From: Rossellomorea marisflavi | Lineage (GTDB): Bacteria > Bacillota > Bacilli > Bacillales > Bacillaceae_B | Length of the DNA stretch: 64,000 nt | Direction: 5' to 3' | Assembly (NCBI GenBank): GCA_003667865.1 | Contig: CP033051.1 | Span: 2,506,501 to 2,570,500 of the forward strand | Part shown: positions 22,115 to 22,544 of the stretch, in pieces | Position numbering within the stretch: position 1 is the stretch's first letter | How the letters are laid out: the number at the start of each line of letters is the position of its first letter | Notes under the pieces: generated by a model | Databases searched by the model: none | What the model was told of the DNA's origin: nothing | Seen by the model: the letters and a program-made list of their open reading frames with translations, nothing else | Translations under genes and position numbers: made by a program

Positions 22115-22141
22115 GAGCCCCTGATAGAGTATCAGGGGCTC
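22115..22141. terminator. hairpin between fumC and the SASP gene
   Basis: A perfect 12-bp stem, GAGCCCCTGATA/TATCAGGGGCTC, with a 3-base loop, between convergent genes. The minus-strand tail (TTCTATTT) is the more terminator-like. Confidence 0.8.
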
Positions 22142-22380: not shown

Positions 22381-22412
22381 GTTCTGTCATCTCCTTGTTG
22401 TAATTTTTTTTT

Positions 22413-22475
22413 GGGTTAGCTGGAATTGCACCAGCGCGCAATCGATTATTGCGACCATCTTAAATGGTGTAACCC
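22413..22475 (-). promoter_or_regulatory. perfect four-way-junction (tRNA-like) element in the SASP leader
   Basis: Closing stem GGGTTA/TAACCC (22413-22418 with 22470-22475) encloses three hairpins: GCTGG/CCAGC (22419-22435), CGCAAT/ATTGCG (22437-22453) and ACCAT/ATGGT (22454-22468). All 22 pairs are Watson-Crick, with only two unpaired junction bases. Read on the minus strand it is a cloverleaf whose last arm has a 7-base loop, TGCAATT, close to a tRNA T-loop. It lacks D-loop guanines, U33 and a variable loop, so it is not a normal tRNA. Function unknown. Confidence 0.75.
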
Positions 22476-22514
22476 ACCGTGTAAGAATTGTTTCTTTGTT
22501 GCGTTGTCATTAAG

Positions 22515-22544
22515 TAGTATGTTTCAGTTATTTTTTTTTATACA
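22515..22544 (-). promoter_or_regulatory. sigma-G-type promoter of the SASP gene
   Basis: On the minus strand: -35 TGTATA (22539-22544), 17-base spacer, -10 CATACTA (22515-22521). This fits forespore sigma-G promoters (TGAATA / CATACTA) and is upstream of a gene class known to use sigma-G. It sets a leader of about 130 bases containing the cloverleaf. Confidence 0.7.

Follow-up and report, generated by a model that had tools for sequence, protein, structure and literature searches.

A leader element of one alpha/beta-type SASP mRNA per genome whose sequence points to tRNA-Gln

The window analysed here, a 64,000-nt stretch of contig CP033051.1 of Rossellomorea marisflavi, contains a gene for an alpha/beta-type small acid-soluble spore protein (SASP), and in front of this gene lies a segment that can be folded like a tRNA. 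This raises the question of what a tRNA-like structure might do at the head of a spore protein mRNA. The initial annotation had described a perfectly paired cloverleaf and had offered three explanations, i.e., stabilisation of the mRNA, a ligand sensor or translation switch, and derivation from a tRNA. The 63 nt at 22413-22475 of the minus strand indeed folded into a cloverleaf, with a minimum free energy of -22.8 kcal/mol, compared to a mean of -13.0 kcal/mol for 200 dinucleotide shuffles (z = -3.5), none of which was as stable. The stems were all paired as had been proposed, but two of them had to be redrawn. The closing stem is not 6 bp but 7 bp long due to the additional pair U22476-A22412, so that the element extends from 22412 to 22476, and the first hairpin, which had been given 5 bp, folds with 6 bp and a 3-nt loop. 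The 5-bp T-like arm with its TGCAATT loop and the 17-nt middle arm were recovered unchanged by sequence inspection and folding. A chance fold could be ruled out by the shuffle z-score together with the covariation described below.

The location of the element between a sigma-G-type promoter and the SASP gene was borne out by the promoter pattern, the open reading frame and its match to PF00269 (Table 1). The pattern GTATA-17-CATACTA at 22515-22543 occurs a single time in the window, while 0.01 occurrences would be expected by chance, and the motif CATAHTA preceded 53 of the 77 related elements, compared to 31 in the reversed control. Since a sigma-G-type promoter lies upstream, the SASP transcript should contain the element; its start was inferred and has not been mapped. 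When the whole leader was folded, the element persisted, the Shine-Dalgarno sequence stayed outside of it, and the CA-rich leader beside it was unstructured apart from one weak hairpin. The spacing between the CCA and the Shine-Dalgarno sequence in the relatives has a median of 16 nt. The mRNAs of sspB and sspE have been reported to be peak transcripts of mid-sporulation (PMC10745405).

Table 1. Features of the SASP locus and of its leader element (positions refer to the window).
Feature	Position	Strand	Basis
Sigma-G-type -35 element GTATA	22539..22543	-	Exact pattern GTATA-17-CATACTA
Sigma-G-type -10 element CATACTA	22515..22521	-	Pattern match and relatives
Short CA-rich mRNA leader before the element	22477..22510	-	Distance from the -10 element; start inferred near 22510, unmapped
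tRNA-like structure (positions 1-72 of a putatively tRNA-Gln-derived cloverleaf)	22412..22476	-	Folding, homologues, covariation, similarity to tRNA-Gln
Acceptor-stem 5′ strand UGGGUUA	22470..22476	-	7 bp with 22412-22418; compensatory changes at 6 of 7 pairs in relatives
D-arm-like hairpin, loop without GG	22454..22468	-	Folding; sequence free in relatives
Anticodon-arm-like hairpin, without U33	22437..22453	-	Folding; length differs among relatives
T-arm: GCUGG, UGCAAUU loop, CCAGC	22419..22435	-	Retained in relatives; compensation at 3 of 5 stem pairs
Acceptor-stem 3′ strand UAACCCA, contiguous with the T-stem	22412..22418	-	Pairing comparison in relatives
Discriminator and CCA position: AAAA in the window, ACCA/GCCA in relatives	22408..22411	-	77 representatives
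A-rich unpaired linker to the Shine-Dalgarno sequence	22397..22407	-	Sequence, leader fold
Shine-Dalgarno sequence AAGGAG	22391..22396	-	Sequence
Alpha/beta-type SASP gene, 71 aa	22165..22380	-	Open reading frame; PF00269, 79 bits
Intrinsic terminator downstream of the SASP gene	22115..22141	-	12-pair stem with T tail

A functional tRNA gene was ruled out, as ARAGORN called none of the tested elements. The window copy was not among the 71 tRNA matches of its own genome and had no match to the Rfam tRNA family (RF00005) at the gathering cut-off of 29 bits; of the loci scanned only L073 passed this value (29.1 bits), while L107 and L074 came near with 24-25 bits; these loci represent one family in which the tRNA features have stayed almost intact. 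A 7-bp acceptor stem contiguous with a 5-bp T-stem and a 7-nt T-loop is present as in a tRNA. Missing from the window copy are U33 and a usable anticodon, the D-loop G18G19 and the variable loop, absences that had already been read from the sequence; in the relatives the length and sequence of the anticodon-like arm vary, and 0-5 nt replace the variable loop. Because position 55 is a G instead of a U in most elements and the GG of the D-loop is gone, the normal tRNA elbow cannot form. The Rfam scan revealed no family at its cut-off in the window, tmRNA (RF00023 and relatives) gave no match at cut-off, and no T-box leader (RF00230) was matched in the window. On the opposite strand, window positions 22410-22476 (+) showed a weak match, below its cut-off, to RF04354 (plastid ycf2 5′ UTR), the consensus of which resembles the complement of a tRNA T-arm.

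The distribution of the element was analysed with several searches. When 100 relatives were searched by BLAST with the leader, dozens of SASP leaders were retrieved with 73-82% identity. Among 299 genomes sampled from the order, 101 were matched by a 26-nt pattern comprising the T-arm and the 3′ strand of the acceptor stem, a minority of the matches being genuine tRNA-Gln genes. In a collection of named genomes the pattern matched 85 stretches, all but a few of them directly upstream of an alpha/beta SASP gene, in Rossellomorea, Metabacillus, Cytobacillus, Niallia, Heyndrickxia, Robertmurraya, Anoxybacillus, Parageobacillus and Aeribacillus as well as in the B. subtilis group (B. spizizenii, B. 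tequilensis, B. inaquosorum, B. mojavensis and B. halotolerans). Judged by its protein sequence and neighbourhood, the gene behind the element in B. mojavensis and its relatives corresponds to the gene that we take to be sspB of B. subtilis. A covariance model, R1, was built from 77 representatives, all of them SASP leaders, and it found a match in all 44 sampled genomes of the genus that holds the B. subtilis group; in 4 to 6 of these the element scores near the tRNA-Gln genes, but the places are separate. Counted by hand, about 115 of the 299 genomes sampled from the order carry the element, and these belong to about 26 of 47 families. The majority of the sampled genomes are thus without a detected element, and therefore it cannot be essential for SASP expression.

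Within a genome the element is rare. Of the seven PF00269 genes in the genome of the window this is the only one that carries it, which rules out a general feature of SASP leaders, and in each of ten further genomes at most one of the fetched SASP genes has it. A genome-wide repeat was ruled out as well, because there is a single copy in the own genome besides tRNA-Gln. The exact pattern was not found in viral contigs, which speaks against a virus-borne element, and strong R1 matches elsewhere in the class or phylum, i.e., outside of the order, were ordinary tRNAs wherever they were checked, mostly for Gln. In one genus (g62; L308, L309, L331, L332) a single SASP leader contains two tandem elements, the second of which is weaker and has no CCA. 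No element precedes a second group of SASP genes, which are sspA-like (L291, L298, L306, L315, L320) and share another conserved promoter with a very short leader (AATTACCA...GAATGAAGCCATGTGTTT...ACTCACAAGGAGG).

Absence of pairing conservation in orthologous leaders had been defined beforehand as the result that would refute the proposed structure. Covariation was therefore analysed for the acceptor and T-stems in the alignment of the 77 sequences, with 500 shuffles as a control. The two stems were paired in 97.8% of the cells, and changes on both sides of a pair were observed at 9 of the 12 pairs, so that the structure passed this test. The compensatory changes comprised 48 cells, compared to 7.1 in the shuffles, none of the 500 shuffles reached the observed value, and the signal collapsed in controls with slid registers. 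The acceptor stems UGGGUUA/UAACCCA, UGGGCUA/UAGCCCA, UGGAUUA/UAAUCCA and UGAGUUA/UAACUCA are all kept paired, and so are UGGACCA/UGGUCCA, AGGGUUA/UAACCCU and UGGGUUU/AAACCCA. The T-loop of the relatives is UGCAANU or, in some lineages, the canonical UUCRANY.

Per position, the acceptor stem, the T-arm and the NCCA carry 1.5-1.8 bits of information, compared to 0.35 bits for the middle region. The conservation of the T-arm and the CCA is inflated, as some of the loci had been gathered with a pattern that spans both; the 5′ strand of the acceptor stem lies outside of this pattern. Downstream of the stem, 65 of the 77 representatives have ACCA, 10 have GCCA and 2 have AAAA, and eight further elements that were found by R1 likewise keep the A/G-CCA. 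The middle region forms two hairpins in 69 of 77 elements (mean z of -2.4 against mononucleotide shuffles), and it measures 22 to 42 nt among the representatives; bigger insertions occur in L112, L113, L156 and L169. Large insertions in the anticodon-like arm were observed in L112, L113, L156, L159, L169 and L173, giving elements of up to about 128 nt with an intact acceptor stem and T-arm. For the D- and anticodon-like arms the claim is limited to folding and does not extend to covariation, because MAFFT aligns the middle unreliably. This comparison of sequences showed that the upper half, i.e., the 7-bp acceptor stem, the 5-bp T-arm, the T-loop and the RCCA, is under selection while the D- and anticodon arms have been freed, and therefore the element does not decode.

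The elements were compared with the 26 isotype/anticodon classes of tRNAs in the genome of the window. tRNA-Gln was the best isotype for 75 of the 77 elements, with a fit of 24.5 of 32 fixed positions compared to 19.4 for the next isotype, and for the acceptor stem alone Gln was best, or tied with Trp, in 76 of 77. The R1 model, applied to the genome of the window, gave tRNA-Gln 38 bits, Trp 24 and Cys 19, and many of its matches outside of the order are tRNA-Gln according to ARAGORN. L116 has even retained GCCAAGCGG from the D-arm of tRNA-Gln. Among the three explanations offered initially, derivation from a tRNA thus received strong support from the isotype comparison and the R1 scores, and the isotype could be specified: the leader element of one alpha/beta SASP mRNA per genome points to tRNA-Gln. 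Convergence was not formally excluded, but descent is the simpler assumption, because the similarity spans the acceptor stem, the T-arm and remnants of the D-arm. In the living lineages the elements form a series that begins with a canonical UUCRANY T-loop and ends with forms that have decayed strongly. Genomes of one family, f3 (G225, G083, G839, G250, G857), contain stand-alone tRNA-Gln genes (L355, L356, L357, L358, L360) with sigma-G-like promoters just upstream, e.g., GCATA-17-CATACTT and GAATA-17-CATACTA, and in two species a CAG anticodon is found in the Gln-type body. These could be forespore tRNA genes, and an ancestor of the SASP leader element may have looked like them.

What is the function of half a tRNA in a leader? 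RNase P reads the acceptor stem, the T-stem-loop and the 3′ RCCA (PMC11143913), it requires the T-loop while the D-loop is dispensable, and RNase Z has the CCA as its primary antideterminant (PMC4919913). The relatives have the features of an RNase P substrate according to sequence and covariation, i.e., a 12-bp stack of acceptor and T-stem with the T-stem-loop, followed by RCCA; in the window copy the 12-bp stack is present and the CCA is missing. The 5′ flank of the elements resembles the pre-tRNA leaders of the same genome, with A at -5, U at -4, a pyrimidine at -3 and a purine at -2. The pyrimidine was present in 76 and the purine in 74 of 77 elements, whereas both were found in 32 of 60 tRNA genes. 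The base class at positions -3 (pyrimidine, mostly C) and -2 (purine) is thus nearly invariant, more strongly than in tRNA genes, and no pairing partner was identified for these positions.

Our tentative preference, held with a little less than even confidence, is that RNase P trims the leader and that the remaining tRNA-like cap stabilises the SASP mRNA. Cleavage and stabilisation are both inferred, in the absence of 5′-end data, and the cut before U1 is inferred because the kept and lost parts, the 5′ flank and the CCA fit to tRNA processing. The machinery for tRNA end processing, most likely RNase P, would recognise the element inside the mRNA and would cut 5′ of U1 (22476), whereby the short leader would be removed and the acceptor stem would enclose the resulting 5′-monophosphate end. 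RNase P would be aided by the encoded CCA, which at the same time would block an RNase Z cut after position 73, so that the cap would stay joined to the coding region. The 5′ end may then resist RNase J, which would yield a stable and uniformly processed SASP mRNA in the forespore. Some observations do not fit: the normal tRNA elbow cannot form, position -1 is not predominantly U, unlike in tRNA genes, and the window copy and L054 have no CCA. Runs of A replace the RCCA in the window copy (22408-22411) and in a few others, among them L316/L054, while nearly all relatives have kept it; because of its AAAA, the window copy may have relaxed this feature. It is tempting to speculate further that a SASP gene acquired as its upstream neighbour a tRNA-Gln gene read by a forespore sigma factor, and that this tRNA gene evolved to serve in cis as a 5′ cap with an end made by RNase P and protected by the fold, a scenario that is possible, although we regard it as doubtful as a whole.

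Cleavage is not the only way in which a tRNA-like structure could be used. A tRNA-binding protein, e.g., GluRS, GatCAB, the CCA-adding enzyme or a tRNA-modifying enzyme, might bind the leader without cutting it and might tune translation or stability, for instance in accordance with the capacity for glutaminylation. The pair U1-A72, which is rare outside of tRNA-Gln and is an identity feature for GatCAB, is present in 71 of 77 elements, and SASPs are rich in Gln and Asn. However, U1-A72 has been swapped to A-U in four elements, as if pairing and not identity matters, the anticodon arm, which is also read by GluRS, is not conserved, and without cleavage the 3′ end is not free for charging, so that we regard such a function as unlikely. 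Somewhat less weight still was given to a plain structural stabiliser, for which any stable fold would suffice and the tRNA form would be merely historical. In Bacillus, structure at the 5′ end acts against 5′ exonuclease, and a stable fold was indeed observed. Stabilisation of the mRNA, as considered in the initial annotation, thus remains possible, but on its own it would leave unexplained why the T-loop and the NCCA, which add no helix, are conserved with 1.5-1.8 bits, and why the acceptor and T-stems are contiguous with 7+5 bp in nearly all elements.

Excision at both ends, which would release a free tRNA-like small RNA, is improbable: the tandem copies in some lineages would be expected of a product rather than of a cap, but the encoded CCA should block RNase Z at the 3′ side (PMC4919913), and the A-rich linker contains no second conserved processing signal. 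A small-molecule riboswitch or translation switch, as had also been suggested for this structured and conserved leader, can hardly be upheld, as there is neither an alternative pairing of the Shine-Dalgarno sequence nor a terminator in the leader nor a match in Rfam, and it is the core of a tRNA that is conserved.

If RNase P does trim the SASP leader, the tRNA machinery would both generate and protect the 5′ end of a class of cellular mRNAs, and RNase P would have, in a model bacterium, a natural mRNA target for which the structure offers an explanation. RNase P affects mRNAs of B. subtilis, but direct cleavage of an mRNA by the enzyme of this species is described as still lacking evidence (PMC11898665); the SASP leader is a concrete and testable candidate for it. 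A structure apparently descended from a tRNA heads one of the most strongly expressed mRNAs of sporulation in Bacillus and its relatives, apparently also in the B. subtilis group, and represents a bacterial case of a tRNA turned into a 5′ element of an mRNA. In open-access full texts no description of a tRNA-like element in SASP leaders was found; subscription papers, including the early work on ssp cloning and start sites, were outside of the search, and therefore an earlier notice cannot be excluded. Taken together, the machinery for tRNA processing may recognise and trim a developmental mRNA.

Among known RNAs, the closest likeness is to bacterial tRNA-Gln(UUG) (RF00005), with which the element shares the UGGGYUA/UARCCCA acceptor stem with U1-A72, the encoded R-CCA, GCCAAG...GGC remnants of the D-arm in several lineages and a CUGGUUCNANUCCAGCUA T-arm in some. 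It differs by the loss of the D-loop GG, U33, the anticodon, the variable loop and usually U55, and by sharing a transcript with a protein gene under a sigma-G-type promoter. The tRNA-like domain of tmRNA similarly connects the upper half of a tRNA (acceptor, T-arm, CCA) to a coding sequence and has its lower half replaced, but the SASP element has no tag peptide, and its coding part is the ordinary downstream gene. MALAT1/mascRNA and viral 3′ tRNA-like structures are further examples of a tRNA-like fold in a longer RNA that is processed by tRNA enzymes, and they are known targets of RNase P. They are located at the 3′ end, or close to it, of RNAs from eukaryotes or viruses, whereas the SASP element resides in the 5′ leader of a bacterial developmental mRNA and has an identifiable tRNA source. 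In B. subtilis, RNase P action on a non-tRNA target has been described for the pbuE mRNA, alongside other bacterial mRNAs (cited in PMC2777011); these targets, unlike the SASP leader, have no tRNA-descended structure. T-box leaders (RF00230) are likewise mRNA leaders of Bacillota that are tied to tRNA, but they bind a tRNA, while the SASP leader element resembles one.
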